This document shows, in pieces, positions 6,046 through 30,664 of a DNA stretch of 64,000 nucleotides. Location: assembly GCA_018816765.1 (NCBI GenBank), contig JAHIUX010000081.1, positions 1 through 64,000 on the forward strand. The letters are read 5' to 3'. Both the position numbers and the translations under genes were made by a program. The DNA comes from Bacteroidota bacterium (lineage in GTDB: Bacteria; Bacteroidota; Bacteroidia; Bacteroidales; F082). Each line of letters opens with the position of its first letter. The first letter of the stretch is position 1. A model generated the notes under the pieces. It was given only the letters and a program-made list of their open reading frames with translations. It was not told the origin of the DNA and searched no databases.

Positions 6046-6049
6046 TTTT

Positions 6050-10520: not shown

Positions 10521-11332
10521 GTTTGTTTTTCAACAACAAATATAACTTCTTTTTGATTGATTGCAAAATCTCTTTTCGTGTTTTCCTCTGTAAGCAATTC
10601 AGTGGCACTAACTTTGGAAAGCGTGAAACCAGCTTTCTCCAGCTGTGCCGGATAGTCCTTGCCATACAACCTTACATGGTCAAACTGACCGAATACAGCT
10701 TCCCGGCCTTCCCGGCTTGTGATACTTTCATCAGTTATGGTAGTATCAAGCATAGGTGACCAGGGCACTTGGAGTATGCCAATGCCACCCTTATCCATCA
10801 CCCGGTAAATTTCCTGCATGGCAAGCAGGTCATCTGCCACATGCTCAAGCACATGGTTGCAGATCAAAAGGTCGAATGCATTAGGGGGAAACGGGATTTG
10901 CTGGACATCCATGATCACCAAATCAGTACCATAATAAACACCTTCGTGATACATGGCCCCACAAATGTATTCAGCAGGATTGTTTGACGCAATATATTGC
11001 GCAAGCATTGGTTCCGGAGCAATATGCAAAATCCTTAATCCTTTTTTATCCAAAACTTTTTTTTGATTGAGATAAACATAAAGCAAGCGGTCACGATCGG
11101 TTGAACCGCAGCCGGGGCAAACCATGTTTTGCCGCAAACCGGCTCCGATAATCTGCATCGACTCAATTACCGGCAGGTTAAATCCGCCGGGAAGGAGTTT
11201 GCGGTAGCTGTGATTGCAGAAGGGGCAATAATAGTTTTTCCCACGGTAGCAAAGTCCACGTAGGTAAAGGTAGCGGGTCCTCAGTTGCCTCGATTGTTTT
11301 CCAGGCAGTATTTTCTTTAAAAATGCCTTCAC
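10517..11332 (-). CDS. SAM-dependent methyltransferase with N-terminal zinc ribbon
   Basis: A 271-residue protein. The N-terminus carries two CxxC pairs, YYCPFC (C36, C39) and MVCPGC (C72, C75), a probable zinc ribbon. A class I methyltransferase fold follows, with a SAM-binding strand (ILHIAPEP), an acidic tip (VIMDVQQIPFPPNAFD) and the post-motif NHVLEHV typical of Methyltransf_11. The start is GTG 11332, 10 bases after the stop of the beta-helix gene, and its end overlaps the hybrid kinase start. Position in the operon suggests a tailoring enzyme acting on a glycan or lipid-linked sugar, but the substrate is unknown. Confidence 0.82.
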   Translation of the reverse strand: MKAFLKKILPGKQSRQLRTRYLYLRGLCYRGKNYYCPFCNHSYRKLLPGGFNLPVIESMQIIGAGLRQNMVCPGCGSTDRDRLLYVYLNQKKVLDKKGLRILHIAPEPMLAQYIASNNPAEYICGAMYHEGVYYGTDLVIMDVQQIPFPPNAFDLLICNHVLEHVADDLLAMQEIYRVMDKGGIGILQVPWSPMLDTTITDESITSREGREAVFGQFDHVRLYGKDYPAQLEKAGFTLSKVSATELLTEENTKRDFAINQKEVIFVVEKQT

Positions 11333-11342
11333 AATAAGGATG

Positions 11343-14176: not shown

Positions 14177-14188
14177 GGCTGGAGTTGA

Positions 14189-14989
14189 TTAATGGTTTCT
14201 AATCTTTTTTGCAGCAAAATTCAATGCATCAATCGGATAATACTCAAAAACAGCAATTTCATCAAGGGTGTTTTTCAGGTTTGCTTCACCGGTGTGAATG
14301 CTCTCAATCACAAAGAGCAGGCTGGTTTGCTCCTGGATGAATTTTCTTGCCCCGTTAAGTACCTGTCTTTCCATTCCTTCCACATCAATTTTTACGAGCA
14401 CAGGAGATTCCGGTTTGATGTCAAGTTCATTTCTGATCTGATCGAGTGTCACTAAAGTCACAGTTGTTGGCAGGCTGCGTTGAACACAGGCTTCGTCGTC
14501 AGGATCAATGGTGCTTAAATGGGATGCACCTGTATTCAGTGGATCAAAGTCAAATGCTGCTTCAGTGACAACATCACTTAAACCGTAGTTAAATGCCTTC
14601 ACCTTTCTTTCAAGGTTGTTGAGCATCAGGTTGATATTTAATGCTTTCCAATTGTCATACACGGGTTCAAACGCATAGGTTTTCAGTCCGAATTTTCCCA
14701 CATAAACAGAGTAAGTACCAACATTGGCTCCAATATCAAGGAAGTGTGTGTAGTTTTTATAATGATCACCTATAAAGACCTTTACCGCCCATTCATAGGC
14801 ATAATTGCCAAATTGAAAATCGAGTGAGCCTTTGCGATGAAGAAAATATCCCAGCTTACCACGGTATAAGCGAGTCCCGATGAATGACTTCTTGAAAATA
14901 AGGTAAACAACAGAAGCGATCACCAGGCGAAACTGCCCGTATTGAATGAAGTCTTTAAAGTATCTGTAGAATGTTTTTATTTTAGACAT
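14189..14989 (-). CDS. FkbM-family methyltransferase
   Basis: A 266-residue SAM-dependent methyltransferase. Visible motifs are FLDIGANVGTYSVY (SAM-binding GxG loop near residue 80), YAFEPVYDNW (acidic residue binding the SAM ribose), and the FkbM signature VLVKIDVEGMERQVLNGA near 200. Such enzymes O-methylate sugars or other hydroxyl groups, and several occur in O-antigen and capsule loci. It is embedded in a run of glycosyltransferases with gaps of 12-26 bases, so methylation of the locus polysaccharide is the natural inference. Confidence 0.9.
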   Translation of the reverse strand: MSKIKTFYRYFKDFIQYGQFRLVIASVVYLIFKKSFIGTRLYRGKLGYFLHRKGSLDFQFGNYAYEWAVKVFIGDHYKNYTHFLDIGANVGTYSVYVGKFGLKTYAFEPVYDNWKALNINLMLNNLERKVKAFNYGLSDVVTEAAFDFDPLNTGASHLSTIDPDDEACVQRSLPTTVTLVTLDQIRNELDIKPESPVLVKIDVEGMERQVLNGARKFIQEQTSLLFVIESIHTGEANLKNTLDEIAVFEYYPIDALNFAAKKIRNH

Positions 14990-15015
14990 GGTGTTGTTTT
15001 TAATTACATAGTTGA

Positions 15016-15633
15016 TTAGTCAGGTTTTACCCATTCATTCTTTTCCGGATTGTAAACCTTCAGCACTTTGGCAGGATTTCCGCCTGCCACTGAAAAGGCA
15101 GGTACAGACTTTGTTACTACGCTTCCGGCAGCAATCACACAATGCTTTCCAATGGTCACACCAGCTGTGATAACACAATTGGCGCCAATCCAAACATCGT
15201 CCTCGATGATGATTTGTTTTGTTTCAACCGGCTGTTTGCTCGGTGATAATGTAATGTCTTTATATCCGTGATTAAGTCCGGATACAACAATGTTTTGGGC
15301 AAACATAATATCATTGCCAATTTGCACCGGCCCAATCAGCACACAACCAAGGCCAATCCTGGTCCTGTCGCCGATGACCACATCGCCAACACCATTGTTT
15401 ACGGTCGAAAAATCTTCGATGGTTGAATCGGTTCCGATTTCAAAATAGTTGAAAGGAAGCACATCCATCCTGGTCCTTTTCCTGATGCAACTACCCTTTC
15501 CTTTGCGGTGCTTGAATGGGTTTAGAAACAGTTTCACCCACAGGCGGGGCCGGGCCTGGTTTGTAGGCATCAAAGCCCACAATGCCAATTTCTTAAGTCC
15601 CGGATTCGACTTGATTTGCTCTTTTAGACCCAT
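15016..15633 (-). CDS. Hexapeptide-repeat acyltransferase (LbH fold)
   Basis: A 205-residue protein with the left-handed beta-helix hexapeptide pattern ([LIV]-G-x4) from about residue 60 on: VVIGDRTRIGLGCVLIGPV, then an NHGY loop carrying the likely catalytic His, then DDVWIGANCVITAGVTIG. The GNPAKVL ending is typical of maltose/galactoside/WcaF-type O-acetyltransferases. It probably acetylates a sugar of the polysaccharide from acetyl-CoA. ATG 15633 is chosen over the longer frame from 15774, since the extension would run 137 bases into the upstream glycosyltransferase; the preferred start lies 4 bases after that gene's stop. Confidence 0.88.
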   Translation of the reverse strand: MGLKEQIKSNPGLKKLALWALMPTNQARPRLWVKLFLNPFKHRKGKGSCIRKRTRMDVLPFNYFEIGTDSTIEDFSTVNNGVGDVVIGDRTRIGLGCVLIGPVQIGNDIMFAQNIVVSGLNHGYKDITLSPSKQPVETKQIIIEDDVWIGANCVITAGVTIGKHCVIAAGSVVTKSVPAFSVAGGNPAKVLKVYNPEKNEWVKPD

Positions 15634-15637
15634 GGTG

Positions 15638-16843
15638 TTATGGTTTTGGCGTCCGCATAATCTGAAGCATGTACTTGTAAATTTCGCCCACATTATTTTC
15701 CCATGTGTGGCTGTTCGCAAATGTTTCGCGGCCTTGTTCCTTAGCGGATGTGTTTTCCTCAAGGGCCTGGGCAACCAGTTTCAGGTAGTCTTCTCTGGTG
15801 TCGGCCAGGTAGGTGTGTTCTGCAAAAACCTCCATTGCTTTTGTTTTCGTAGCAACAGTAGGTTTCCCCATTGCGAGGTATTCATCAATTTTCCGTGGAT
15901 AGTTTCCGATCGTGACTTCGTTCAGCTTCTGAGGATTCAAGGCCACATCGAATGGAAACAGGTAGGCGGGTAGTTCTTCCATCTTTTTACTTCCCAGGAA
16001 ATATACGTTCGATATCGTATGCAATTCACTGTTCTTAAACGCTTCGTCCTCAGGGCCTACCAGTACGATACTCCAGTCAGGGCGGTTTTTTGCCAGATAA
16101 ACAAGCACATCGATGTCGAGGCGCAAGGAAAACAGCGCACCAATATAGCCGATGATTGGCCGCTTGATGCCAGCAATGTCAGCAGGGATTTCCTTGATCA
16201 GCTTCTTGTTAAACAGACTTACATCGCAGCCCTGACCGACATAATAGGAGTGAGGGTTGAATTTTCGGGCATGATCGGCTAAATAGGTTGAGTTGGCGAC
16301 AACAAGGTCTGATTTTGCCATCAATCCGGCTTCGATGCGAATGCCTTGTTTTTTCCAGAAATCGACAGCAATAAGGTTATCGCGTGTGTAGTAAATATAC
16401 AGTTCCGGCTTCAGCAGTTCTTTGAGGTAGAATCCCCTGAACATATCGCTGTCGTTGAATATAAAGTAGTTTGAGAAGTTCAGCCGTTTAATTGCTGACT
16501 TGATTTGTCGGGCAAAACGTTTGTTGTTTATCTTATTGAAAAAATCAAAAACGCTACTAAAAGGCAGCTGGCTGATTGACTCAAGGGTTGTTTTTGGATA
16601 AAGGTTCCACATATTTTCGGAAACCTGCACGAGATCGGGTTCCTGACCTTTCAACACCCTGTTGCGTTTTTGAATCAATGGGTCAGCCTTTTCCCTGATT
16701 TTTGTAAGCCTGTCGAGGGGGTAGTTTACATAAAGCACCCTGTTGTGGCGTGCAAATTCGTGCGCCAGGTTGATGCAATTTGAGCCAATGCGGCTGTCAA
16801 GTGCCTGCAAGCCAATGACAATAAAGTCCCTGTTTTTTATCAT
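15638..16843 (-). CDS. Glycosyltransferase, GT4/GT1-like (GT-B fold)
   Basis: A cytoplasmic GT-B-fold transferase of about 401 residues. The N-terminal domain starts IVIGLQALDSRIGSNCINLA. The C-terminal donor domain is recognisable from PIIGYIGALFSLRLDIDVL and WSIVLVGPEDE, ending with NYPRKIDEYLAMGKPTVAT, the donor-sugar-binding helix with its conserved Glu. No signal peptide or membrane segment is seen. ATG 16843 is preferred; a TTG at 16849 is also in frame. The sugar donor and acceptor cannot be deduced. Confidence 0.88.
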   Translation of the reverse strand: MIKNRDFIVIGLQALDSRIGSNCINLAHEFARHNRVLYVNYPLDRLTKIREKADPLIQKRNRVLKGQEPDLVQVSENMWNLYPKTTLESISQLPFSSVFDFFNKINNKRFARQIKSAIKRLNFSNYFIFNDSDMFRGFYLKELLKPELYIYYTRDNLIAVDFWKKQGIRIEAGLMAKSDLVVANSTYLADHARKFNPHSYYVGQGCDVSLFNKKLIKEIPADIAGIKRPIIGYIGALFSLRLDIDVLVYLAKNRPDWSIVLVGPEDEAFKNSELHTISNVYFLGSKKMEELPAYLFPFDVALNPQKLNEVTIGNYPRKIDEYLAMGKPTVATKTKAMEVFAEHTYLADTREDYLKLVAQALEENTSAKEQGRETFANSHTWENNVGEIYKYMLQIMRTPKP

Positions 16844-16862
16844 AGCCAAGGTTGTTTTTGTT

Positions 16863-18002
16863 CTACGAAATTTCGTGATAAAGGTTCAGCACTTCCTGGG
16901 CCATTGCACGCCATGAAAATTTCTCAGCTTGCTTAAACCCTTTATTTATCAAATCGCCGCGCAGGTTGTCATCTTTCATCAGCCGTTTCATCGCGGCCGT
17001 AATTTCCTCAGGTTTATACGGGTCAATGATTAAGGCTGCATCGCCAGATACTTCAGGCATACTCGATGTGTCAGACGTAATAACAGGTGTACCGCAGCGC
17101 ATTGCTTCCAGCATCGGAATGCCAAAGCTTTCCCTAAGAGATGGATATAAAAACAGTTTACTCAGGCTGTAAATGGACGGAAGGTCCGTATTAATGACAT
17201 AACCAGTGAGGTGAATGTGATTGATGAGGTTTTTGTCGCCTATTTCGGTCAGCAATGCGTCAAGGGCGCTTTTGTCGTAATCGAGCATCACCAGCTTAAG
17301 CGGATCAGATGTTGACTTCAGATAGTCGGAAAATGCCTTTAGCACACCTTTGGTGTTTTTCTTGGGATCGGTATTTCCCAGGAAAAAGGCAAAGTGGTCA
17401 GGCAAGGCATATTTTGCTTTAACCCGTTGCAGCTCCTGTTGGTCGGTTATGGGTTTAAAATGCTCGCCTACACCATTATAGATAGCCACCAGCCTTTTGT
17501 CGTCAGCCGGAAATCCAAAGAAATCGCGGATGCGGTTTTTTTCAAAGTGCGACACGGTGATGATGCGCTGACTTCTTTCGACTACCTTAGGCACCACAAA
17601 ACGCCGGTACATATTGCCCATTTTCTGATACCATGTACCGCCTTTTTTCAACAGGCTGATGCTTTCCAGGTAAATGATGTCATGTAGGGTAACAACAAGA
17701 GGCATCTTTAGTTTAATGGGTGCAGTGTTGCTGGTACAATGCAAGATGTCGCAGCCATATTTTGCTGCAGCCTTAGGCAGGGCGATCTGTTCCCAGCTGG
17801 GATAGGGCCCTCCGCCAAGCGGGATAATTTGAAAATTTGCCGTTGGTTTCAGGCAATCTACATCGCTGTCTGGTTTGACGAAGATAAAGTACTCGTTCTC
17901 TTTATCAATTTCCTGCAGATTCCGGATAAGTTCAAGGGCAACCATATCCATGCCGTGCTTTTTCACCCGAAAAAGGCGCTGACCTTCGATACCAATTTTC
18001 AT
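16863..18002 (-). CDS. Family 4 glycosyltransferase
   Basis: A 379-residue GT-B transferase. The N-terminal region has the mannosyltransferase-like pattern DILHCTSNTAPI and VVTLHDIIYLES (residues about 83-115). The C-terminal GT4 domain contains FFLGNTDPKKN, HIHLTGYV and the hallmark E-x7-E motif in RESFGIPMLEAMRCGTPVI, followed by GDAALIIDPY. It resembles WbdA/MtfB-type retaining mannosyltransferases. It lies 13 bases from the next gene and 23 from the previous one, within the operon. Confidence 0.9.
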   Translation of the reverse strand: MKIGIEGQRLFRVKKHGMDMVALELIRNLQEIDKENEYFIFVKPDSDVDCLKPTANFQIIPLGGGPYPSWEQIALPKAAAKYGCDILHCTSNTAPIKLKMPLVVTLHDIIYLESISLLKKGGTWYQKMGNMYRRFVVPKVVERSQRIITVSHFEKNRIRDFFGFPADDKRLVAIYNGVGEHFKPITDQQELQRVKAKYALPDHFAFFLGNTDPKKNTKGVLKAFSDYLKSTSDPLKLVMLDYDKSALDALLTEIGDKNLINHIHLTGYVINTDLPSIYSLSKLFLYPSLRESFGIPMLEAMRCGTPVITSDTSSMPEVSGDAALIIDPYKPEEITAAMKRLMKDDNLRGDLINKGFKQAEKFSWRAMAQEVLNLYHEIS

Positions 18003-18025
18003 ATGACTATTTTATTTGCTAAATC

Positions 18026-19237
18026 CTATTTCCGTCTTATCTGAAATGCATTATACGTGTGTTTCGTATGAATGAATTTTTTGTTTGCCCCCCTGATTTT
18101 TATCAATGATAAAAACATAAATATAAACCCGAGGGGGAGCGCTGCCAGTGCCTTAAGCGTGTTAAAGTTATAATATTTAATGGGAATTGATACCAGCAAA
18201 GCGCAAATTGTAAAAAAAAGACTCAGCGACCATGCTACCGAAACCCAGATTGGGTTCACAAACCATGTAGCGAGGGCAATGATTGTCAAGCTTCCAAGTA
18301 ACAGGATTCGTGGCATTTGAAGGTATTGTATCGCCTTGTTAAAGTAATCGAAGTTGCCATCATGAAAAAAAGCTTTTGTTGCAGGAGAAAAGTGCTTGCC
18401 GAAATAGTGAAACTGTGCCGAGAGCCACCTGCGGCGCTGTTGGGAAAAAATTTTCACATTTTGCACCTTTTCATCGTACACATAGGCGTCAGGCAGGTAT
18501 TCAATTTCATCACGTTTGCTCAATAGCCTGAGCTCAATTTCTTTGTCGAAGCCACCAACAACCTCGATATCCTGCATCATTTCCTTGAAATAGTTGAAAT
18601 CGAAGGCCATGGCTGAGCCAATGAGCGCTGATGACAGACCAACAACCCGGTGTCCTTTGCGAAAGAGGTTATTGTTGATTTCTTCGCTAACGGCATCCAG
18701 GATGGCGAAGTTGGTATTCAGGTTTTTGGCTACCCGATGTCCCTGAACTGCTTTGTATCCGTGACTGAATGAATTGTTCAGCTTATGCAAAAAGTGCGGC
18801 TCCATCACGTTGTCGGCATCGAGCACCACCACAATTTCGTATTGATTTTCTTTGAGGTTTTTCAGGGCAAAGTTTAATGCCCTGGTTTTTGTACTAATTC
18901 TAAAATCAGCACTGTAGAGTATAATAGGTAATTGTCGCAATTTCTCTAGCGAACCGGGTTCAAATTTGTCAGCGATTACGATAATGTCAAAATGGGTTTT
19001 CGGGTAAACCTGATTAAGCGCTTCTTTGGCAACTTCAAAAATCACCTCATCTTCTTTATAACAGGGAATCAGTACGGCAATCCGGCGTCGCTTAAAGTCA
19101 AATGGTTTGGTCCGGTGTATGCGAAAACGGCTTGCCAATGCAAAAAACAAAATATACAAACCAGTAGAAGTCAGGTAAATATAAAGTATTACCTGTAATG
19201 TGTTCAGCAGTGCATATAGTATATGAGTCAGGTTCAA
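18026..19237 (-). CDS. Processive-type membrane GT2 glycosyltransferase (copy B)
   Basis: A 403-residue membrane GT2 with an N-terminal helix (about 9-35), catalytic motifs LIPCYKED near 56, DAD at 140-142, GFDKE near 230 and QRRRW at 267-271, and membrane helices at about 298-385. These D, DxD, ED-like and QRRRW motifs are those of cellulose/chitin/hyaluronan synthase-like enzymes. It is a clear paralogue of the product of 20178-21401, including the C-terminal KFIHTxH motif. The start is TTG 19237, whose TTGA overlaps the TGA stop of the upstream GT2; this coupling supports the unusual start. Confidence 0.9.
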   Translation of the reverse strand: MNLTHILYALLNTLQVILYIYLTSTGLYILFFALASRFRIHRTKPFDFKRRRIAVLIPCYKEDEVIFEVAKEALNQVYPKTHFDIIVIADKFEPGSLEKLRQLPIILYSADFRISTKTRALNFALKNLKENQYEIVVVLDADNVMEPHFLHKLNNSFSHGYKAVQGHRVAKNLNTNFAILDAVSEEINNNLFRKGHRVVGLSSALIGSAMAFDFNYFKEMMQDIEVVGGFDKEIELRLLSKRDEIEYLPDAYVYDEKVQNVKIFSQQRRRWLSAQFHYFGKHFSPATKAFFHDGNFDYFNKAIQYLQMPRILLLGSLTIIALATWFVNPIWVSVAWSLSLFFTICALLVSIPIKYYNFNTLKALAALPLGFIFMFLSLIKIRGANKKFIHTKHTYNAFQIRRK

Positions 19238-20163
19238 AGTTGTGGGTTTTCATGAATTTCATCGTCAAATAAGTGCCTGATATGCCAGCCAATGGCACGG
19301 TAATAGGCATAAAACAGCGCTGTTTTGCCTCTGATCAGGTAGTTGAATGCATTTTTGGGTATTGCCACAAGCAACTGGTAAGCAATTCCCAGATAAAAGT
19401 CACGCCCAAACACGTTCCGGCGCATAAACACAATTCGGTTGCGGTTGAGGTAATAAATTTTCAGTGTACTTAATTTACCTGTTGAAACAGATTCTTTGTG
19501 TAATACTTTGGAGTTATGCACGAAATGAATGCTATAACCTGCGCGTTTTATCCGGGCGCACCAATCGGCTTCTTCGTAATAAAGAAAAAATATATACGAC
19601 ATCAGCCCAACCTGCTTAACCACCTCAATAGGCACCATCATTGCAGCTCCATGGGCATAAGCCGTTTCATAATCCTGGTCAAACTGGCCGATATCTTTCT
19701 GCTTATGGCCAAGCGCAGTGTTGCGCATGGTAATATAATTGATGGGGGTGTAGCCAGCGTATTGGATGGTATCGGGGGCATAATAAAACTTAATCAGTGG
19801 ACTCACAGCGCCAATGGTTTTATCACTGGCAAGTTTGTTTACGAGTGGTTCCATAAAGTTGGGCATAACCTCAATGTCGTTGTTCAACAGCAACACATAT
19901 TCTCCACGGGCACGCATCAAACCAAAATTGTTGCCGGCAGCAAAGCCATAATTGATTGGGTTTTCAACAAACACAACATTGGGATAGGTTCTTTTAATCA
20001 GGCTGGCATCATCGTCGGGCGAAGCATTATCGATGACAATAATTTCAAAGTTTGGATAGGTGATTTTATTCAATGAATCAATCAGGGCACAGGTGACCTT
20101 CGACTGATTGTAGTTAACAGTAATGATTGAAACAAGCGGATATTTCTGAGTGCTAAATGCCAT
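19234..20163 (-). CDS. Family 2 glycosyltransferase, rhamnosyltransferase-like (copy B)
   Basis: A soluble or peripheral GT2 of 309 residues. Motifs are VSIITVNYNQS near 11, VIDNASPDDD near 43, NYGFAAGNN near 71, and the DxD-equivalent NND at 94-96, followed by YYEEADWCARIKRAGY. This is the pattern of GT2 rhamnosyltransferases and related enzymes (WcaA/RfbF-like). It is paralogous to the product of 21389-22336. Its stop overlaps the start of the membrane GT2, so the two form a translationally coupled pair. Confidence 0.9.
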   Translation of the reverse strand: MAFSTQKYPLVSIITVNYNQSKVTCALIDSLNKITYPNFEIIVIDNASPDDDASLIKRTYPNVVFVENPINYGFAAGNNFGLMRARGEYVLLLNNDIEVMPNFMEPLVNKLASDKTIGAVSPLIKFYYAPDTIQYAGYTPINYITMRNTALGHKQKDIGQFDQDYETAYAHGAAMMVPIEVVKQVGLMSYIFFLYYEEADWCARIKRAGYSIHFVHNSKVLHKESVSTGKLSTLKIYYLNRNRIVFMRRNVFGRDFYLGIAYQLLVAIPKNAFNYLIRGKTALFYAYYRAIGWHIRHLFDDEIHENPQL

Positions 20164-20177
20164 TCCTGATGTGCAGA

Positions 20178-21401
20178 TTAATGCTTCTCAACCTCACCGG
20201 AATGAGAGTGAGTGGTGTGAATGAATTTTTTAGTTGCTCCCTTAATTTTTAGCAAACTCAACATCATCATGGTGAAGCCTTTTGGCAGTGATAACAAGGC
20301 AACATAGGTTTTTCTGTTGTAGAATTTCCTTGGCACTGCAATCAGTAAACTCAAAAAAGTGAATACGAGCAGCGCAAGCCAATGGTAAAAACCGGTAACA
20401 AAATAATCGTTAACTACATCAAAATCAATAAAATGACTAATGCCAGTGGCTAGACTTATCAGGAAGAGTATACCCAAAAGCAGGATACGTGGCGGCTGAA
20501 TCATTTGAATTACCTTGTCGTAATAATCGATATTGCCATAGCGGATCAGGTGCCATACCCCATCAAAAAAGTAATGCTTAAAATGACTTAATTGCGCTGC
20601 TATCCACCTTCTGCGTTGGTTAACAAACACATCTGATTTCTGTGTTTTTTCATCGTAGATAAATGCATCTTCAACATACTCAATGACATAACCTTGTTTT
20701 AACAGCTTCATTTCTACCTCTTTGTCCTCGCCAACAGAGTCAACAGTAGCCATTGTTTTTTTATACAAGGCATAATCGATGCCCATACCAGACCCGATCA
20801 GTGCCGATGAAAGTCCGATTGCCCGGTGACCTTTGCGGAAAATGTGGTTGTTAATTTCTTCGCTGATGGCATCGAGTCGGGCAAAATCAGTGTTGGTGTT
20901 TTTTGCCATCCGGTGCCCCTGCACTGCCAGAAATCCCCGATTAAAGGCAGCATTGATTTTTTGTAATACATCCGGTGCCATGATATTGTCTGCATCGAGG
21001 ATCATGGCAATGTCGTAGTCATCACCAATAAGCTGCATGCATTGGTTCAGGGCTTTTGATTTTTTACTGATTTTGAAAACGACTTCAACAACCCTGATCG
21101 GGAGTTTCGATAATGCAGCAACTGTTTCAGGCTTAAATGAATCGGCGATGACAATAACGTCAAACCTGTCTTTTGGGTAATCCTGATTAAGTGCGTCAGC
21201 AGCCACATCCACGATCACCTGATCTTCTTTGTAGCCTGGTATCATCACAGCGATTTTCCTCACTTTTTGAGTGAGGTCTTTTTTTCTGGCTCGGGGGATA
21301 TAGGCCGTCAGGCTGTAAAAAACAACATACCCTGTCGCCAGAAAGAAGAAGGCGTAGATGATGAGTTCGATTACCCTGCCGGTTTGAATCAGGATTTCCA
21401 T
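20178..21401 (-). CDS. Processive-type membrane GT2 glycosyltransferase (copy A)
   Basis: A 407-residue membrane GT2 with an N-terminal helix (about 12-32), MIPGYKED near 53, DAD at 136-138, GEDKE near 223, QRRRW at 262-266, and several C-terminal membrane helices. Closely related along its whole length to the product of 18026-19237 (shared QGHRxAKN, SEEINNxxFRKGHR and GLSSALIGS blocks). Its start lies 13 bases inside the upstream rhamnosyltransferase-like gene. The pair 20178-22336 looks like a duplicate of 18026-20163. Confidence 0.9.
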   Translation of the reverse strand: MEILIQTGRVIELIIYAFFFLATGYVVFYSLTAYIPRARKKDLTQKVRKIAVMIPGYKEDQVIVDVAADALNQDYPKDRFDVIVIADSFKPETVAALSKLPIRVVEVVFKISKKSKALNQCMQLIGDDYDIAMILDADNIMAPDVLQKINAAFNRGFLAVQGHRMAKNTNTDFARLDAISEEINNHIFRKGHRAIGLSSALIGSGMGIDYALYKKTMATVDSVGEDKEVEMKLLKQGYVIEYVEDAFIYDEKTQKSDVFVNQRRRWIAAQLSHFKHYFFDGVWHLIRYGNIDYYDKVIQMIQPPRILLLGILFLISLATGISHFIDFDVVNDYFVTGFYHWLALLVFTFLSLLIAVPRKFYNRKTYVALLSLPKGFTMMMLSLLKIKGATKKFIHTTHSHSGEVEKH

Positions 21402-22336
21402 AATGTGTTGGTTAATTTTGGTGATTCGTGTATGCCTTTCACATGGGTCATGTTCCAGAAAATTGCCCGCCAGAATGCCCTGGCAAGGTCAAATCGTGCT
21501 TTCAGGAGAAATTCCAGGGTGATTTTTGGAGCGGTTACAAAATTTAAGAAGAGGGCAGACAACAGCTTATCCAATCCTTTTGCATTGCGTCGCGCAAACA
21601 GGAACCTGCCCCGGTTGATGTAATAGATCTGAAATGCACTGTTTTTGACGGTAGAAATCGATTCTTTGTGCAAAACCTTCGACCTGCCGTCATAAAATAT
21701 TTTGTATCCAGCCCGTTTTATCCTGGAAGCCCAATCATGTTCTTCGTAGTAGAGGAAAAAGATATCGGCCATCATTCCAACTTCTGCTATTACGCGCATA
21801 GGAACGAGCATTGCCGCACCGAAAATGCTTCCGGTTTCGCGGGTATAGTCATATTGCCCATGGTCAGTTTCGCCAAAGCCGATGGCATAATTACGGATAG
21901 TGATCGGGCTAAGCGGGGAAAAGCCTGCAAACTGGAATGTGTTGGGGGTGTTGAAATAATGAATCTTCGGGCTTACCATACCAATGTCAGCATTGTTTTC
22001 CAGCAATTCGACCATCGGTTCGAGAAAACCAGGTTCAACTTCAGTGTCGTTGTTAATAAACAGGGCATATTTCCCTTTTGCCTGACTGAGGGCAACATTG
22101 TTTCCACCAGCAAAACCGAGGTTTGCTGCTGTTTTCAGCAGGATAATCTCAGGGTATCGCTCCTTAATATTGTCGGGATTATCTTTGGGAGATGCATTAT
22201 CGACAACAAAAATCTCCAATGCCGGATAGGTGGCTTTACGCATGGAAGCCAGAAACTCACAGGTAACCTCCGACTGGTTGTAGTTCACTGTGATGATTGA
22301 AACAAGTGGCCATTTTGGGTGCTGGTTGGTATTCAT
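21389..22336 (-). CDS. Family 2 glycosyltransferase, rhamnosyltransferase-like (copy A)
   Basis: A 315-residue GT2 with VSIITVNYNQS near 12, VVDNASPKDN near 44, NLGFAGGNN near 72, NND at 95-97 and YYEEHDWASRIKRAGY. It is paralogous to the 309-residue protein at 19234-20163. It comes directly after the Wzy-like gene with a 39-base gap and overlaps the following GT2 start by 13 bases. Transfer of rhamnose or a similar 6-deoxyhexose is only a family-level guess. Confidence 0.9.
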   Translation of the reverse strand: MNTNQHPKWPLVSIITVNYNQSEVTCEFLASMRKATYPALEIFVVDNASPKDNPDNIKERYPEIILLKTAANLGFAGGNNVALSQAKGKYALFINNDTEVEPGFLEPMVELLENNADIGMVSPKIHYFNTPNTFQFAGFSPLSPITIRNYAIGFGETDHGQYDYTRETGSIFGAAMLVPMRVIAEVGMMADIFFLYYEEHDWASRIKRAGYKIFYDGRSKVLHKESISTVKNSAFQIYYINRGRFLFARRNAKGLDKLLSALFLNFVTAPKITLEFLLKARFDLARAFWRAIFWNMTHVKGIHESPKLTNTLWKS

Positions 22337-22375: not shown

Positions 22376-23869
22376 TCATGTGTTGTTGGTTAAAGACCAG
22401 GGAGACAGTCCTTTTCCAACAAGATAAATATACTCTCTTTCGAGTTGTGCGGACATAAAAATAAAGGCCATACTCAGGTAAATCAAAATACCTGTTGGCA
22501 TCTGTCCAAGTACACCATTTCCGTAACTCGCGCCCATGATGCCGGTGAATCCGCATGCAAGGGCGCTGATTATTCCTCTCAGCTCCTGCTCCTGTAGCTT
22601 AAACATGATGAAAAACGATCCCTTTATCAAAATATAACTTAAGATAAACAAATGAAGAATCAGACCGACAATGCCTTGTTCGGCCCAAATCTGCACATAC
22701 CAGCTATCCGTTGCAATTTGCGCCAGAAAGCCCTGAGGCGAGAAGCGTTTTCCCCAGTCGCCTGCACTTCCAATTCCACCTCCCAATGGCCTGCTGGCCA
22801 GATAAGTGGATAACACACGCCTTGTTTCGAGCCTCACGAGATAGGAGGCATCATCCTCTGGTCTGAAGGCGGTACGCATCCTTCGGATCTGTGAGTTGCT
22901 CTGGCCAAGGTAGGTGTATGCAAAAAACACGTATACCAGTGCGAGCAGGATGCCACCGGTGACAATCACACGGACATTTTTGCGGTGCAGCAGATAGGTG
23001 ACGCCTCCAACCATGGGCACGATCATGGCACCGCGGGTCCCGGATATCATCATGCCCCACAGACCGAAAACACCCATGGTGATGAAGAAGATCTTATTCT
23101 TTAACCCCCTGATATTCAATCCAACAAGGAGACCAACAACACCGGCAGCGCCCTGTGCAGCGCCAAACTGCCCGGCATCACTGAAAAATGAAAATGCACG
23201 CAACTCACCAAATAAAATGTGGGTAACACCACCGATGGTATCAAGCCAGAATTGCTCAGCCGAGTCAGGGCCAATATAGATTTGCTGTAAACCTTTCAAG
23301 GTGCCCAGGATGGAGAAAGTTCCCCAGATATACAGGAAGAGGTATAAGAAACGCAACCTGTTGAAAATCATGAATGCAAGCGGAATAAGCAAAACCATGT
23401 AAAGCGAGATACCCCGCATGGCATAAAACCAGGCAGTACGGCTAAGCACCTCAGGGTTAAACAGTTGTAAGACTGTGTATCCAAACCAGATTATACTTAG
23501 GTAGGTGAGATCCCTGTTCGCAAACGTCCAGTTAACCTTGCTGTTAAAATACCTGAAAAACACCGCCACATAGGTCAGTACCAAAAATCCATCAACAGAC
23601 AAGCCAAAAGGAACGTTTCTGATATAGCGTGTTAGCCCGATGGCAATAAATCCTAGGACAATAATCGTGAAGATGCCTACTTTGGGGTCGTTAAAAAAGC
23701 GGTTAAAATATATAATGATTGGAAAAAGTCCCATCAAAGCAACTGCAATGATAATTCCACCACGGGCAATCAGGTAACCGAAAATCACGGTTACGACTAT
23801 CAGCCCCGCAATGATGAGGGGATGTTGGAGTTTTTCCGCGCCGGTTTTTTCCTTCAGTGATGAAAACAT
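22376..23869 (-). CDS. O-antigen polymerase/ligase-like membrane protein (Wzy/WaaL family)
   Basis: An inner-membrane protein of 497 residues with about ten or more hydrophobic segments. It contains the Wzy_C-type region with a long loop after residue 300 (SQIRRMRTAFRPEDDASYLVR) carrying Arg and Glu/Asp residues typical of O-antigen ligases and polymerases. GGGIGSAGDW and YVQIWAEQGIVGLILHL are typical of the family. Polymerase (Wzy) is favoured over ligase because wzx-like and wzz-like genes lie immediately beside it. It would polymerise undecaprenyl-linked repeat units in the periplasm. Confidence 0.85.
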   Translation of the reverse strand: MFSSLKEKTGAEKLQHPLIIAGLIVVTVIFGYLIARGGIIIAVALMGLFPIIIYFNRFFNDPKVGIFTIIVLGFIAIGLTRYIRNVPFGLSVDGFLVLTYVAVFFRYFNSKVNWTFANRDLTYLSIIWFGYTVLQLFNPEVLSRTAWFYAMRGISLYMVLLIPLAFMIFNRLRFLYLFLYIWGTFSILGTLKGLQQIYIGPDSAEQFWLDTIGGVTHILFGELRAFSFFSDAGQFGAAQGAAGVVGLLVGLNIRGLKNKIFFITMGVFGLWGMMISGTRGAMIVPMVGGVTYLLHRKNVRVIVTGGILLALVYVFFAYTYLGQSNSQIRRMRTAFRPEDDASYLVRLETRRVLSTYLASRPLGGGIGSAGDWGKRFSPQGFLAQIATDSWYVQIWAEQGIVGLILHLFILSYILIKGSFFIMFKLQEQELRGIISALACGFTGIMGASYGNGVLGQMPTGILIYLSMAFIFMSAQLEREYIYLVGKGLSPWSLTNNT

Positions 23870-23891: not shown

Positions 23892-25319
23892 CTAAAACCT
23901 GATCAAGTTTTTGTAGTTTTCTTTTAAAAAGAGCATCCCACCACCAAATACATTCCTTAACCGGAGATCCAGTTCGCGATGCAAAAACACATAACCTACA
24001 AAAATACCAATAATTGTAAATAAGATGGTTGCGTAGGCAACCCACTCCAGTGTTTTAATTACTGTATATTCTTTAGCCATAAAAAAAATGTCAGAAACCT
24101 CGGATTGACTCGATAACATAAATACGGTAAGGGATAAACCAGCAAAAAGGAATGACATTCCAAACACAGCGATCAAATCGCCGATGATGTTTGATAATGC
24201 CATATAAACCACTTTAACGAAGTTCTGCCTGGGTCTGTTTATGCTGTCAAGGGTTACGCCGATAAACCTGTCGATGGGCAGAAACAAGCCATATATACAA
24301 AATATCCTGAATACATTGGCTGTTTGAACGTATTCGGGACCACCAAGGATCAACACAGCCTGTTCGGCAAAAATGAAGCAAATAAGCATGACAGGCGCCA
24401 GCAGGAAGGTCATTCCACCTGCGTTCCGGTAAAAAATCTCTTTAACGAGTTCGGGGCGGTTTTCTATGCTTGCCTTCGACATACCCGGGAAAGCTGTTGC
24501 CGTGAAACTCCTCAGCGGAATCTCGATGATCTCGGTGAGTTTCAGTGGAATGCTGTATAATGCAACACCGGTAGTGCCAAGGAAAGGGCTGATGCCAATA
24601 ATAAAGGTGTCGGAACTTTTCAGCAGGTTGCTTCCAATCAGGGTTCCGGTTGTGTATTTGCCAAAATTGAGGACAATCTTATGTGTGGCCTTGTTTGCCA
24701 TGAAAGTGAATTTGATGCCGTCCCAGTTCAAAAAACTCGACATGATAGAACTCAGCAGGTTTGTAAGCAGGTAAGCCCATAAAATGACGGAGATATCAAA
24801 TTTGAGGAACATATTAAAGGTCAGAAACACCATGAAACTGCCCACGTTGATCAACCTGAGCCAAAGCATGATATCGAAACGCAATTTTGCCTGCTGAATT
24901 GATTGTGCGTTGTTAAAGGTCAGGTTGAAGAAGGAAAGTACCGGATACCACACAAAAAACATCCCGAAACCTGATTCATCGATGCTGGTTTTGAAAAAGA
25001 AATAAATGAGGATTGTTAACAAGGCCAGAAGCACGGTTGAAATAAGGTTGATCAGGTTGTTGGATCCGATCAGTTTCTTCGATTCTTCTTCATCGGCGCC
25101 CGATAAAAACCTGATAATGGCGGTGCGGGTGATGCCAAACCGCAACATATCAACGAAATTACTAAGGGTTATAAACAGTATCCATTCTCCGAAAACCTCC
25201 TGCGGTAGCATCCTGACGAGCATCAGAAAGCTAAGAAAGCCAAACACAGCAACAATTCCATTGTTTGTTAGCGACAAGAAATTGTTGTTGCTAAAAACCC
25301 TAGCAATTTTAGTAGCCAC
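23892..25319 (-). CDS. Polysaccharide flippase (Wzx-like, MOP superfamily)
   Basis: A 475-residue integral membrane protein with around 12-14 predicted helices. Its N-terminus has the usual transporter start (NNGIVAVFGFLSFLMLVRML). The internal segment GTTGVALYSIPLKLTEIIEIP is typical of Wzx/RfbX flippases. It is predicted to flip undecaprenyl-pyrophosphate-linked repeats across the inner membrane. The start is GTG 25319, 8 bases after the stop of the Wzz-like gene; no better ATG is nearby. With the Wzy-like and Wzz-like genes it defines a Wzx/Wzy-dependent pathway. Confidence 0.87.
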   Translation of the reverse strand: MATKIARVFSNNNFLSLTNNGIVAVFGFLSFLMLVRMLPQEVFGEWILFITLSNFVDMLRFGITRTAIIRFLSGADEEESKKLIGSNNLINLISTVLLALLTILIYFFFKTSIDESGFGMFFVWYPVLSFFNLTFNNAQSIQQAKLRFDIMLWLRLINVGSFMVFLTFNMFLKFDISVILWAYLLTNLLSSIMSSFLNWDGIKFTFMANKATHKIVLNFGKYTTGTLIGSNLLKSSDTFIIGISPFLGTTGVALYSIPLKLTEIIEIPLRSFTATAFPGMSKASIENRPELVKEIFYRNAGGMTFLLAPVMLICFIFAEQAVLILGGPEYVQTANVFRIFCIYGLFLPIDRFIGVTLDSINRPRQNFVKVVYMALSNIIGDLIAVFGMSFLFAGLSLTVFMLSSQSEVSDIFFMAKEYTVIKTLEWVAYATILFTIIGIFVGYVFLHRELDLRLRNVFGGGMLFLKENYKNLIRF

Positions 25320-25327: not shown

Positions 25328-28138
25328 TTAGTTTTCTTTAACTTGAATCCTGATTCTGAACGGGTATGTAGCGTAATATTTGACTTTCTGCAATAAGGTA
25401 TTTTGCTTTTCACGCTTAAAGCCGGAAATCATTTCCTGTATTGCATAGTCCTCTGCTTCGTTCAAAATCACCATCGGTTCTTCCTTCGAAATATCCCTGA
25501 TAATGCCCAAAGCGGCAGCGTCGGCCTTTTCCCAGTGGCTGGTCGATTTGATCACCAGCAATCCAATGTCGGCTGACTGTAATATTTCGAGTGGATACGC
25601 ATTATGAATAATGGAAGGAATTTCGAGGAAAATGTAATCGTATTGGTAATTTTCACGCCTGAGGGTGTTGCTGCTGATAAGTTCCTGCAGGTTATTGATT
25701 TCAACAAAGTTATCGCGAATCGGGTAGCTGTAGCTGAAATTCATATCCTCATCGGCAACAGATTCTTCTTCCTTTGAATAGTTCAACAGCAGCACCTTTT
25801 CGCCATACGTTCTGAGCTTGTTGGCAATTTTACCGGCAAGGAATGTCTTACCAACTTGTCCTTCAGTACTGAAAAACAGGATGAGATAAGGTTTCGAAAC
25901 CGGATACAGCGAATTGTGTTTTAGCTTCAACTTGATGTTTTGAATAATCATTTCAACAAGGCGGTTGCTGATATACACCAGGTTCTTCATGTCGCTGGCC
26001 GAATCAACGATAGGGAAGGCGCCTGCGATTTTTAATCCAACCTGATCGGCAATGCGGTTTGGTGTTTTAAGCGATGAGTCAAAATATTCAAGTACAAGAA
26101 TGATAAACGCAACCAGGATGAACCCAATCATAGCCGCAGCAATTACAAGGTATTTTGCCTTTGACGGGTTGGCCTGAATGGGGAAATATGGAGGATCGAC
26201 CACCCTGATGTTGGTAGCCATCTGGAGGTTTTGTTGCCGCATCTTGGCCAGGTTGAGGCTACGCAACAGCTCAAGGTATGACTGTTCGGCTACAGTGATT
26301 TCGCGCTCGATCCTTTTCAGCATGGCACCAAGAGGGGCAAACCGCTGGTATGTTTTTACGAAATCAATTTTCCTGCGCGAAAGCACCACAAGGCTGGCTT
26401 TTGCCTCCTCGTATGCCAGCGCGCTTTTCAACCATTCATCCAGCAGCCGTGCTATGGGCATCCCCTGTGTGGAGTGGCTGTACAGATAAAGTTGGTCAAT
26501 ATACAACTTGATGTCGTCGCGCAACTGCTCTGATTTCAGGCGTAAGCGCTGAATTTCATTGCCAATGCGGTCGTCATAGTCTTCGGCCAGTTCATTTACC
26601 AGAATCCTTTCCGTGACTTCGGCATATTCCTTGCGCTTCTGGTTGATCATATCACTTTTCAGGTATATGCTGTCGCGGCGGGTAAGGTTTGTTTCCAACT
26701 CACGCAAAGAGGCCGATGACTGTGCCATCCTGATTTGCTCATTCTGATAATACAGGTCAAGGTCTTCCTTTTGTTCCGCAATATACTTGGTCTGTTCAGT
26801 GTAATTGATGATGTTGTTCTTCTTGTTAAAGCGAAGCAAGCGGTCTTCAGCGGCCTGAAGTACGGCATCAGCCGAGTCAACCTGTTTCTTGAAATATTCT
26901 ACTACAAGGTCAGTTTGATTGGCTTTCAACACCTTATAGTTTTTAACAAACACCTGTGCAATGATTTTCAATGTTTGCTGACAGATTCCCGGGTCATCAG
27001 ACAAAAACACCAGCCTGACAAGGTCGGAATTGTTGATGCGGTAAATTTGCAGGGTTTTGAGGGAACGGATACTGTAATGTTTGCTCTCGCCATAATGCAG
27101 CAGTCCGTATACAAAATTACTATCGCTGGAATTATAGTAGTTTACCAGATTCTGAACTGTCTTATCATAATCATCCTTGCGTATGCCTGGAGGGATAACC
27201 GGATCTTTATCAATAGTAGCCAGGCCGCCATCGTCTCTTTTTTCAGCCATTCCCACACCTGTTGATGCTGATTGTGTGGTTTCAACAGCTGGGGTGTTGA
27301 TCAGTTCGCTGTAGGCGACATCATCAGATTCGCTGTACGTGGAGGCATCATTTTCGTCATAGTTTTGTGGCATTACACTGCCCGACTGTATTCCAGTCGA
27401 AATAATCACTTGTTGCCCCACGACAAGATTTTGTGAACTGAAATCGTTGATTTCCCTCAACTTGCCAATGCTTACACCGTATTTCTGAGAAATTGTAAGC
27501 AGTGATTCACCTGCCTGAACCGTGTGCGTGATTGTTCCGGCATGATCTGCAGTTGATGCGGGAGTGGTCAGGGGAGCATCGTCTTTCGTAAGGCCTGTTT
27601 TTATTCTGGTGGTTGTATCAACGCCATTGCCCGAGAGTTCCTGGATTGCCCTTGTTTTCTTTTTGCTGATTTCCTTTTCAAGGGAACGGATTTCCTTCTC
27701 AAGCGACCTGATCTGTTCCTCTTTCTCACGCAAAACACCCGACTTGCCATTTTTTACTACCAGGTCCTTTACATATTTGGGAATAAACTTCTGCAGTTTG
27801 TCGTAGTTCTCGTTTGAAATATATTGCGGATTATATGATTCGAGCGACAGGCTCTGAGCCAGCAACATAATGGCCGATTCAACAATGGTTTGCCGCGAGT
27901 TGATCAGGTTGATCATATTGTCGAACTGCGCGCTTGTGCTAAAGAAATCGGTAGGGCGTTGGGCTGTGGATTCAATGGAGTATCCGGTGGTTACCCCGGT
28001 ATAGATAATGGTTTCAGATTCATAAACTTTATCCTGATTTCTGGTCAGATAGTAAACAATGATGGCCAATAGCAATGGAATGGCAATAAGTAGCACCAGG
28101 TTGTTTCGGAATATGCGTATAAATTGATTGATATCCAT
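25328..28138 (-). CDS. Wzz/Wzc-like chain-length protein with periplasmic LysM domain and degenerate kinase domain
   Basis: A 936-residue inner-membrane protein. TM1 is at about 13-32, with a Wzz domain after it. A coiled coil (about 136-165) contains a duplicated IRSLEKE heptad. A LysM domain lies at about 203-247 (THTVQAGESLLTISQKYGVS through GQQVIIS), then an acidic Ser/Thr-rich linker and a long coiled-coil periplasmic region (about 400-640). TM2 is at about 663-685. A cytoplasmic domain follows with a P-loop-like STEGQVGKTF (Lys764). Walker A' (NYS instead of an Asp-rich strand) and Walker B (IFLEIP, Glu for Asp) are decayed, and there is no clear C-terminal tyrosine cluster, so tyrosine kinase activity is doubtful. 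It is expected to set chain length and couple to export; the LysM suggests peptidoglycan binding. Confidence 0.85.
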   Translation of the reverse strand: MDINQFIRIFRNNLVLLIAIPLLLAIIVYYLTRNQDKVYESETIIYTGVTTGYSIESTAQRPTDFFSTSAQFDNMINLINSRQTIVESAIMLLAQSLSLESYNPQYISNENYDKLQKFIPKYVKDLVVKNGKSGVLREKEEQIRSLEKEIRSLEKEISKKKTRAIQELSGNGVDTTTRIKTGLTKDDAPLTTPASTADHAGTITHTVQAGESLLTISQKYGVSIGKLREINDFSSQNLVVGQQVIISTGIQSGSVMPQNYDENDASTYSESDDVAYSELINTPAVETTQSASTGVGMAEKRDDGGLATIDKDPVIPPGIRKDDYDKTVQNLVNYYNSSDSNFVYGLLHYGESKHYSIRSLKTLQIYRINNSDLVRLVFLSDDPGICQQTLKIIAQVFVKNYKVLKANQTDLVVEYFKKQVDSADAVLQAAEDRLLRFNKKNNIINYTEQTKYIAEQKEDLDLYYQNEQIRMAQSSASLRELETNLTRRDSIYLKSDMINQKRKEYAEVTERILVNELAEDYDDRIGNEIQRLRLKSEQLRDDIKLYIDQLYLYSHSTQGMPIARLLDEWLKSALAYEEAKASLVVLSRRKIDFVKTYQRFAPLGAMLKRIEREITVAEQSYLELLRSLNLAKMRQQNLQMATNIRVVDPPYFPIQANPSKAKYLVIAAAMIGFILVAFIILVLEYFDSSLKTPNRIADQVGLKIAGAFPIVDSASDMKNLVYISNRLVEMIIQNIKLKLKHNSLYPVSKPYLILFFSTEGQVGKTFLAGKIANKLRTYGEKVLLLNYSKEEESVADEDMNFSYSYPIRDNFVEINNLQELISSNTLRRENYQYDYIFLEIPSIIHNAYPLEILQSADIGLLVIKSTSHWEKADAAALGIIRDISKEEPMVILNEAEDYAIQEMISGFKREKQNTLLQKVKYYATYPFRIRIQVKEN

Positions 28139-28151: not shown

Positions 28152-28922
28152 CTAACGTAATACGTTAATAAGGTTGAACTTAATACCTGTATATACTTCT
28201 AGTAGCTGGTAGTGCTTGCTAAACTCTGCAACGGCCTGGCTAAACTCAACATTTCCCCGTGTTTGTATTTCCTTCAGTCGGGCGTATTCAGCAGTGGTGA
28301 TTTCACCGTTCAAAAATTGATTCTGTGCCATTTGCATCTGAATCAAGGTAAATTTCTGGTAATCATTGTAAATCCTGATATAGTTCTGCCATTGAACCAT
28401 CAGGTTATATGATTCAATCACTTCGCGCTGTACAACCCGGCTATTGACTTCACGTTGTGTAAACGACAACTCGATCCATTTTTTCTGTTTGTTGATTCTG
28501 TTTCTCCTGTCGATGAGCGTGGCGAACGGAAAACGAATATAGAAACCGACAGCAATGTTATCACGGATGGATTCACTGAAATAGAAGCGGTCAATCCGGG
28601 TCAGCTCATCACGGTCGCGGAAAGTCCAGCGACCAAAGTTTGCATCAAGGTTCAGGCTGAAATGCTCTGTCCAGTAGCGTGCCTGCGACAACATTTCGAA
28701 ATAATAATAATCCGCTTTCAGCTCTTCGTACCTTACATAAGGCGAGTTGGCAACGGCAGAATCAATCAATACACGCAAAGGGGGCAGGCGTTTGGTAATA
28801 TCGTCAGTTAAGGGATTGAACAATTTAGTCTCATCTGTTTCAAGTATTTGTGAGCATACCGGCGATGAAATAAACATGACCAACAATACAACAAACGAGA
28901 TGATTTTCTTAGTATCAGACAT
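28152..28922 (-). CDS. Half-size TolC/OEP-like outer membrane protein
   Basis: A 256-residue exported protein with a signal peptide ending near ICSQ-like SSPVCSQ. The mature part resembles a single outer-membrane efflux (OEP) repeat: LRVLIDSAVANSPYVRYEEL, an alternating strand region (NLDANFGRW, VGFYIRFPF), then two long helices with AQNQFLNGEITTAEYARLKE. Typical TolC proteins have two such repeats and about 430-480 residues, so this one has half the usual length with no sign of frameshift. It directly precedes the Wzz-like gene (13 bases). It may form the outer-membrane exit for the polymer, since no Wza/BexD-type gene is seen; that role is inference. Confidence 0.72.
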   Translation of the reverse strand: MSDTKKIISFVVLLVMFISSPVCSQILETDETKLFNPLTDDITKRLPPLRVLIDSAVANSPYVRYEELKADYYYFEMLSQARYWTEHFSLNLDANFGRWTFRDRDELTRIDRFYFSESIRDNIAVGFYIRFPFATLIDRRNRINKQKKWIELSFTQREVNSRVVQREVIESYNLMVQWQNYIRIYNDYQKFTLIQMQMAQNQFLNGEITTAEYARLKEIQTRGNVEFSQAVAEFSKHYQLLEVYTGIKFNLINVLR

Positions 28923-29081: not shown

Positions 29082-30272
29082 TCAGACGTTTTCCTTTTGA
29101 AATAATGCCGGAATTGTACGCAAAATAAGTTTGATGTCACCCCAAAAAGAATACGATTTAGCATATTGATTATCAAGCCCTTTTCTTTCTTCTTCTGACA
29201 TTTTTCCTTTTTTTCCGCGTTTTTCAACCTGCCATAATCCGGTAATTCCGGCGGGTCCCATAAAGCGTTCGCTCCAGTCGTCAGAGGTCAACAGTTCAGC
29301 TTCGTAAAGAGGCAAAGGCCTGTTTCCAACGATCGACATATCGCCTTTTAATACATTAACAAGTTGCGGGAGCTCGTCGATACTTGTATTTCGGATAAAC
29401 TTACCCACCTTGGTCACCCTTGGATCATCCTTGATTTTGATAAATGTAGAGGAAGCTTTTTTCTTTGAGGTCTCATTAAACCAATATTCGCAGATTTTCT
29501 TTCCTTCTGAATACAGTGCAGGGGAGCACAGTTCACCCCCGGCAAGTTTTGCGCAGCGTGGGCAATCGCCGGCCTCACTGAAATCAACAGAGCTATCAAT
29601 GTCGTATTGGTTCAGGTGCTTCAGTTCTTTCAGGGCTGAGTCGGCACCGGTGCGCATCGACCTCAATTTATAAAACTCAAAGATGCGGTATCCTGTGCCC
29701 ACACGCTTTGAGGTGTAATAGACCTTACCCTTCGATTCGAGCCGGATCAGTAACATCACAACAAGGATGACCGGCGATAATAAGATCAAGGCTAAAGAAG
29801 ATACAATGATGTCGAACAACCTTTTGGCAAGCGGAATCTTATACTCCCAGGCTTTTTCAACAGAATCGCCATATTTTGAAAAGAAGTCCTTGTATTTCTT
29901 TAAAAACAATACCCTGCTATGGATCTTTTCAGGATTGATGTCAGCATCGTAAAAATCATCTATCCGCTGTTCGAATGCCTGTTTTTTATGCTTTTCATCG
30001 GCTTCCTGACTAACGACGATAAAGGGCGTAACACCGTGGATTCCTTTGGCCTTTAGCATTTTGGCAATTTCAATCCCATTCATCCCCGGAAGGTAAACTT
30101 CGCTGATGATGCCATCAATTAAGGGATCGTTATTCAATAAATTGAAAGCAGTCAAACCATTCTCAGAACGTTTTAGGTGAAACAGGTCGGTCCTTGACTC
30201 AAAAGCACTGAAAAGGTGAGGGTTACCACCAATGTATAATATTCTGAGTTGTTTTCCTGTTTCTGTATCCAT
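29082..30272 (-). CDS. Initiating sugar-phosphate transferase fused to a pseudo-receiver domain
   Basis: A 396-residue fusion. Residues 10-125 look like a response-regulator receiver fold with key residues lost. The acidic pair is replaced by GG (LYIGGNP), the phospho-Asp by Glu58 (ISEVYLPGMNG), and the KP motif by DINP. After a linker comes a bacterial sugar transferase (WcaJ/PglC-type): KRLFDIIVSSLALILLSPV (membrane helix, about 150-176), the SKRVGTG and EFYKLRSMRTGAD segments, DPRVTKVGKFIRNTSIDELPQ, GDMSIVGNRP and GLWQV. An insertion of about 65 residues between the RSMR and DPRVT motifs holds C237, C240, C249 and C261, a possible zinc site. It should load the first sugar phosphate onto undecaprenyl phosphate. 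A stand-alone receiver gene lies immediately upstream. Confidence 0.88.
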   Translation of the reverse strand: MDTETGKQLRILYIGGNPHLFSAFESRTDLFHLKRSENGLTAFNLLNNDPLIDGIISEVYLPGMNGIEIAKMLKAKGIHGVTPFIVVSQEADEKHKKQAFEQRIDDFYDADINPEKIHSRVLFLKKYKDFFSKYGDSVEKAWEYKIPLAKRLFDIIVSSLALILLSPVILVVMLLIRLESKGKVYYTSKRVGTGYRIFEFYKLRSMRTGADSALKELKHLNQYDIDSSVDFSEAGDCPRCAKLAGGELCSPALYSEGKKICEYWFNETSKKKASSTFIKIKDDPRVTKVGKFIRNTSIDELPQLVNVLKGDMSIVGNRPLPLYEAELLTSDDWSERFMGPAGITGLWQVEKRGKKGKMSEEERKGLDNQYAKSYSFWGDIKLILRTIPALFQKENV

Positions 30273-30292: not shown

Positions 30293-30664
30293 CTACTTAC
30301 GTGATAACAATAGCTCAATCCTGATGGATAATTCTTCCGGATTGAAAGGTTTAACGATATAGTCACTTGCTCCCAGTTTCAGGCATTTGACTTTTTCCTG
30401 GCTGCTTTCGATTCCAGAAAGCATGATCATTGGAATTTCTTTAAAGTACCCACTAGTTTTCAGGTTCTTAATCAGCTCATAGCCATCCAGGTTAGGCATC
30501 TGGATATCAGCGACAATCAGATCCGGCATATTGCCATGTTCAAGCCACTTCATGCCTTCCATGCCATCACTTTTTGTGATCACATCATAGGTTTTACTCA
30601 AAAAGTTCTCAAGCAACATGCGGATGCTTAACTCATCGTCAATGACCAATATCTTTTTTTTCAT
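30293..30664 (-). CDS. Single-domain response regulator at head of the polysaccharide operon
   Basis: A stand-alone receiver of 123 residues with intact motifs: the acidic pair in LVIDDE, phospho-acceptor Asp53 (IVADIQMPNLDG), switch Ser in MLSGIE and Lys105 (YIVKPF). There is no DNA-binding or enzymatic output domain. It is the first gene of the minus-strand polysaccharide locus, 20 bases before the sugar transferase fused to a decayed receiver. It could modulate that enzyme by protein contact, or accept phosphate from the hybrid kinase at the other end of the locus; both are inference. Confidence 0.92.
   Translation of the reverse strand: MKKKILVIDDELSIRMLLENFLSKTYDVITKSDGMEGMKWLEHGNMPDLIVADIQMPNLDGYELIKNLKTSGYFKEIPMIMLSGIESSQEKVKCLKLGASDYIVKPFNPEELSIRIELLLSRK

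Follow-up and report, generated by a model that had tools for sequence, protein, structure and literature searches.

The Wza/Wzc system with its phosphorylation cycle is the model for polysaccharide export across the outer membrane. LysM domains generally bind GlcNAc-containing glycans, and in the LysM proteins TsaP and FimV of type IV pilus machines, the domain is linked to envelope machinery within the peptidoglycan; to our knowledge, both proteins are unrelated to the one described here outside the LysM domain. Phosphorylation-free polysaccharide co-polymerases (PCPs) with separate pseudokinases are represented by EcpK/EpsV of Myxococcus and HfsB/HfsA of Caulobacter, and the available passages of the paper describing them mention neither a LysM domain nor an OEP partner for either pair (PMC12004946). 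A glycan array showed that the jellyroll domain of Wzc binds GlcNAc/Gal-rich glycans; the domain was proposed to load repeat units, and its deletion lowered capsule yield (PMC12881504). OPX systems with β-barrel partners are known, and a term search found no TolC or efflux protein in the two texts concerned (PMC9603273, PMC9601211). The single-domain receiver EpsW of Myxococcus acts on the initiating phosphoglycosyl transferase EpsZ (PMC12802240). A literature search, with subscription papers and preprints outside its scope, returned no title or abstract describing LysM in a co-polymerase, Wzc or Wzz, and none describing a TolC or efflux protein together with Wzx, Wzy, Wzz or a co-polymerase.

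The DNA analyzed here, referred to as the window, is a stretch of 64,000 nucleotides from a Bacteroidota bacterium of the order Bacteroidales (contig JAHIUX010000081.1). It encodes a Wzc-like PCP-2 with a periplasmic LysM domain and no usable BY-kinase active site (Table 1). Two transmembrane helices (aa ~14-32 and ~661-689) surround the Wzz, helical-arm and GNVR region, which is the arrangement of a PCP-2, and since they also flank the LysM domain, the latter is placed in the periplasm. The N-terminus gave a weak Wzz Pfam match below the cut-off, with the relatives L189 and L191 scoring above it, and the C-terminal part gave a weak CbiA/AAA_31 P-loop match. Profile alignment with hhalign to a three-sequence Wzc set returned 98% probability across aa 362-895. 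When the full-length AlphaFold model was used in Foldseek, Wzc and Wza-Wzc complex structures ranked first, the model itself (pLDDT 61.5, pTM 0.32) being too weak for arm geometry or LysM reach.

Table 1. Features of the polysaccharide locus in the window, listed in the order of the minus strand.
Feature	Coordinates	Strand	Evidence and remarks
Single-domain response regulator	30293..30664	(-)	Pfam E 3e-27; receiver motifs intact
Initiating phosphoglycosyl transferase with fused receiver-like domain	29082..30272	(-)	Bac_transf E 3e-56, Response_reg E 1e-9
Single-repeat OEP (half-TolC-like), putative outer-membrane partner	28152..28922	(-)	256 aa; Pfam OEP E 2e-6
LysM-bearing polysaccharide co-polymerase (PCP-2) with fused pseudokinase	25328..28138	(-)	ATG start, 936 aa
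Helix aa 134-168, likely coiled coil, ahead of LysM	27635..27739	(-)	Model secondary structure; 62% identity within clade
LysM domain, aa 205-246	27401..27526	(-)	Pfam PF01476 E 3.1e-11; dN/dS 0.026 (rough value)
Acidic Ser/Thr-rich disordered linker, aa 249-314	27197..27394	(-)	pLDDT <50; 25% identity
GNVR domain, aa 607-682	26093..26320	(-)	Pfam, 27.8 bits vs cut-off 27.7
BY-pseudokinase domain, aa ~751-936; K764, N786/S788, E839	25331..25888	(-)	Profile alignment and relatives
Flippase, Wzx-like (Polysacc_synt)	23892..25319	(-)	Pfam
Polymerase/ligase, Wzy_C	22376..23869	(-)	Pfam
Glycosyltransferases, methyltransferases, hexapeptide transferase, beta-helix T9SS-type cargo	10517..22336	(-)	Same cluster

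An earlier sequence-only reading of this DNA had located a LysM unit between the two membrane helices of a Wzz/Wzc-type protein, flanked by a coiled coil and an acidic Ser/Thr-rich linker, and had named failure of a profile search to score the LysM region as refuting it. These features held, the coiled coil as a likely one. The domain scored 43.5 bits against a curated cut-off of 20.9, and LysM proteins of the PDB aligned to the same stretch. Disordered linkers lie on both sides of it in the full-length model (aa about 169-201 and 249-312), and the one that follows it contains 13 acidic, 3 basic and 15 Ser/Thr residues by an eye count over aa ~249-314. The domain was present in 63 of the 72 proteins of the first relatives set, conserved between poorly conserved linkers. 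Its identity within the clade was 55%, over species whose polysaccharides should differ, and the residues V207, E211, L227, N231 and G241 were invariant. Many species have two tandem copies, and one or two copies are inherited by clade. Median dN/dS between close relatives was calculated by NG86; as each region offered 7 to 13 usable pairs, the values are rough. LysM had 0.026, the arm 0.02, the cytoplasmic domain 0.038 and the two linkers 0.18 and 0.14. Judged by these values, the LysM domain is under selection, with a ratio as low as that of the structural core amid fast-evolving linkers. A chance match was ruled out by the Pfam score together with the conservation and dN/dS.

In the profile alignment to E. 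coli Wzc, K764 paired with K540, N786-Y-S788 with D562-C-D564 and E839 with D642. The Walker A Lys of a BY kinase is thus present, both Walker A' Asps are replaced (NYS) and Glu stands for the Walker B Asp, in agreement with the motifs recognized earlier. The absence of a tyrosine cluster was likewise confirmed, the last 25 aa containing 0-3 Tyr across the family in place of a Tyr-rich tail. The domain is therefore a BY pseudokinase, i.e., homologous to the kinases without their key catalytic residues or Tyr tail. Among the 72 relatives, the Walker A Lys was found in all 72 and Glu at the Walker B position in 71, and none had Asp at the first Walker A' position; in a wider set, the counts were 64/65 for Lys and 60/65 for Glu. 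LysM-less relatives across the class Bacteroidia carry the same motifs. The description of this domain as decayed proved to be wrong, because Lys and Glu are near-invariant and dN/dS is low, and a decaying kinase domain was rejected on these grounds. By the same estimates, the pseudokinase is conserved under strong purifying selection, and nucleotide binding may persist, since the Walker A Lys and the Glu are retained.

The product of the OEP gene has a signal-peptide-like N-terminus, and its model (pLDDT 85) consists of one β-hairpin and one long helical hairpin, which corresponds to half a TolC protomer. Foldseek matched it to TolC, OprM and CmeC at a probability of 1.0 over about half of their length. 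Hence, the protein has the OEP domain and the fold of a TolC-type factor, and it has one OEP repeat per chain (256 aa, one β-hairpin) instead of two. If the half-TolC protein is the exit, six of its subunits would form a TolC-size barrel of 12 strands, and eight would match the Wzc octamer. The OEP gene was immediately upstream of the PCP gene in 20 of 21 loci at class level and in 35 of 37 at order level, the two order loci without it containing short, probably truncated ORFs. A single-repeat OEP of ~260 aa was upstream in nearly all loci having upstream sequence, including those of LysM-less Pontibacter. This partner is a wider find, beyond the claims of the sequence-only reading.

No Poly_export (OPX/Wza) gene was found in the window's cluster. 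A profile search of the same genome gave a single Poly_export hit, on contig C23, beside a canonical Wzc (L124:8354-10843) with the motifs GFDLR and VDTPP and a long (GY)n tail, which provides a built-in control. Genome G014 (98% complete), which carries the LysM-PCP, gave no Poly_export hit, and the less complete genomes G046 and G072 showed the same pattern; since these genomes are drafts, the absence is suggestive only. In most genomes an OPX is also present elsewhere and could serve in trans.

On the minus strand, the genes are arranged as receiver, receiver-transferase, OEP, LysM-PCP, Wzx-like and Wzy_C, followed by glycosyltransferases and modifying enzymes, so that the PCP adjoins Wzx-like, Wzy_C and Bac_transf genes, the cluster context of a PCP-2. 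The large majority of Bacteroidales loci have this order, and it is partly kept in Pontibacter and Spirosoma, two genera with LysM-less versions. As read from the sequence, the receiver-like domain fused to the transferase has Glu58 at the phospho-Asp position and no acidic pocket. Within the polysaccharide cluster, window positions 11343-13133 encode T9SS-type cargo, a β-helix protein bearing a Por secretion tail. At 4544-7381, three ORFs in succession have FKBP-type isomerase domains.

The relatives set was 100, and the same GTDB family contained many full-length matches at roughly 50-78% identity. Scanning of GTDB species genomes returned 77 loci, the majority in Bacteroidales MAGs. At class level, about 22 of 247 genomes carry the PCP family, the rest of the 30 hit genomes matching via LysM only; at order level, 69 of 393 genomes had a match. 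Forms of about 680-745 aa were without LysM, and longer forms mostly had one or two. LysM presence was clustered on a quick tree, with ~7 state changes, 3 of them forced by well-supported branches; L106, whose ORF is shorter than its tblastn match and probably interrupted, was excluded from the trees. Since LysM-less relatives have the same pseudokinase, the simplest reading of these sequences is that kinase activity was lost before the arrival of LysM, which would have been gained or lost later. The rest of the machine is kept in the LysM-less relatives, so a tether would be dispensable for the basic function. In G081 (99% complete, no Poly_export hit), the locus L036:5820-7076 encodes a 419-aa TM-LysM-TM-pseudokinase protein without helical arm, beside nucleotide-sugar genes, and the same genus also has a LysM form of full length (L191). 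The loci L074, L096 and L098 (record titles Chlorobiota, Alphaproteobacteria and Paraglaciecola) cluster with the Bacteroidales family or match it, and are possibly mis-binned contigs.

The reading we favor, with a little over even confidence, is that this Wzx/Wzy machine exports independently of phosphorylation, has a half-TolC exit and is anchored by its LysM. The PCP would act as co-polymerase and export scaffold of the Wzx/Wzy exopolysaccharide pathway without tyrosine phosphorylation. By analogy with the proposal for EcpK/EpsV, it is quite likely that the pseudokinase, with its Walker A Lys kept, binds nucleotide and controls the assembly of the PCP ring through binding. The periplasmic helical arms would dock on an oligomer of the half-TolC protein, which would form the outer-membrane exit in place of Wza; gene pairing and fold are the two bases of this step, which we hold to be reasonably probable. 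Exopolysaccharide export here probably works without Wza. The LysM domain, placed on flexible linkers after a helical stalk, would bind peptidoglycan and hold the trans-envelope complex in the wall mesh. Peptidoglycan binding is plausible from the LysM family, and the tether as a whole is slightly favored, though not decisively, because LysM is conserved over many species and follows a helical stalk, with a disordered linker on either side. A broader proposal is more tentative, and we put it at somewhat under even chances: the loci may belong to a widespread Bacteroidia class, in which a half-TolC ring takes the place of Wza as the exit on a phosphorylation-free PCP ring that LysM pins to the peptidoglycan in many Bacteroidales.

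The LysM insert (aa ~131-318) is located after the N-terminal Wzz part and ahead of the helical arms, an interval occupied in E. coli Wzc by the jellyroll domain (aa 112-204). LysM could accordingly be a substrate module instead of an anchor, capturing nascent exopolysaccharide or GlcNAc-containing lipid-linked repeats and feeding them to the Wzy/PCP platform, a role that would suit the general binding of GlcNAc-containing glycans by LysM. Because the slot is that of the glycan-binding jellyroll (PMC12881504), this is a serious rival to the peptidoglycan tether. However, the slot is empty in most LysM-less relatives, in which the flanking columns are separated by ~95 residues vs 190-310 in proteins with LysM. 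Of the LysM-less forms, the longer L184, L189 and L129 contain linker alone at this place, and it is empty in L186 and L188. The proteins scanned showed no clear Pfam domain of another kind (SPOR, OmpA, carbohydrate-binding modules) in the slot. The level of LysM identity across species with presumably differing polysaccharides also argues against capture, and the long linkers and stalk suggest, within the limits of a weak model, that LysM is not fixed near the membrane like the jellyroll. On balance, we regard glycan capture as unlikely, while well ahead of the three readings below.

That LysM is a passive passenger, spacer or fold-stabilizer would fit its loss, or failure to be gained, in many relatives, but its low dN/dS within fast-evolving linkers, its invariant residues and the tandem copies make this highly improbable. 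It had also been suggested that a peptidoglycan tether took over from tyrosine phosphorylation as the organizer of the export complex. Although LysM and pseudokinase occur in one protein, the same pseudokinase is found in LysM-less relatives of many Bacteroidia families, and LysM switches repeatedly on the tree while the pseudokinase is constant; the strong form of this idea is contradicted, and we give the idea very little credence. Nor is the C-terminal domain at all likely to be a still active kinase or ATPase with Glu839 standing in for the Walker B Asp. The near-invariance of the Walker A Lys and this Glu would fit such activity, but both Walker A' Asps and the Tyr tail are missing, and the same genome retains a canonical Wzc.

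If the broader Bacteroidia proposal is correct, the half-TolC ring would add another exit for polysaccharides to the OPX types. The conserved cassette pairs a pseudokinase with a half-TolC-like partner in a cluster lacking OPX, and would show that both Wza and the kinase cycle can be replaced. It also bears on how a trans-envelope sugar exporter is placed within the wall. Going by the searched literature, no co-polymerase has been described with a wall anchor, and the LysM would be the first. These results suggest that the cassette represents a variant of bacterial polysaccharide export that is widespread and little studied.

Compared with known systems, the window PCP shares with E. coli Wzc the topology, the Wzz/GNVR region, the helical arms, TM2 and a P-loop domain with aligned motifs. 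It differs in having no catalytic Asps or Tyr tail, in the jellyroll slot, which in this family holds LysM or nothing, and in the neighboring outer-membrane partner, which is half-TolC-like instead of Wza. With EcpK/EpsV and HfsB/HfsA, as far as the available passages describe them, it shares a Wzx/Wzy PCP with a BY pseudokinase without Tyr tail; their pseudokinases are separate, EcpK having no Walker motif, whereas here the domain is fused and the Walker A Lys and the Glu are kept (PMC12004946). Since these pairs are known, the pseudokinase idea is not new; what varies here is the fusion to the PCP together with the retained Walker A Lys and the conserved Glu. The OEP protein has the fold of the TolC/OprM factors, with a β-hairpin and a long helical hairpin, but consists of one ~256-aa repeat instead of two, and its gene accompanies that of a PCP, not of an RND/ABC adaptor. 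Finally, as in EpsW/EpsZ, a free receiver accompanies the transferase that initiates a Wzx/Wzy pathway (PMC12802240), and the transferase of the window additionally carries its own fused receiver-like domain.
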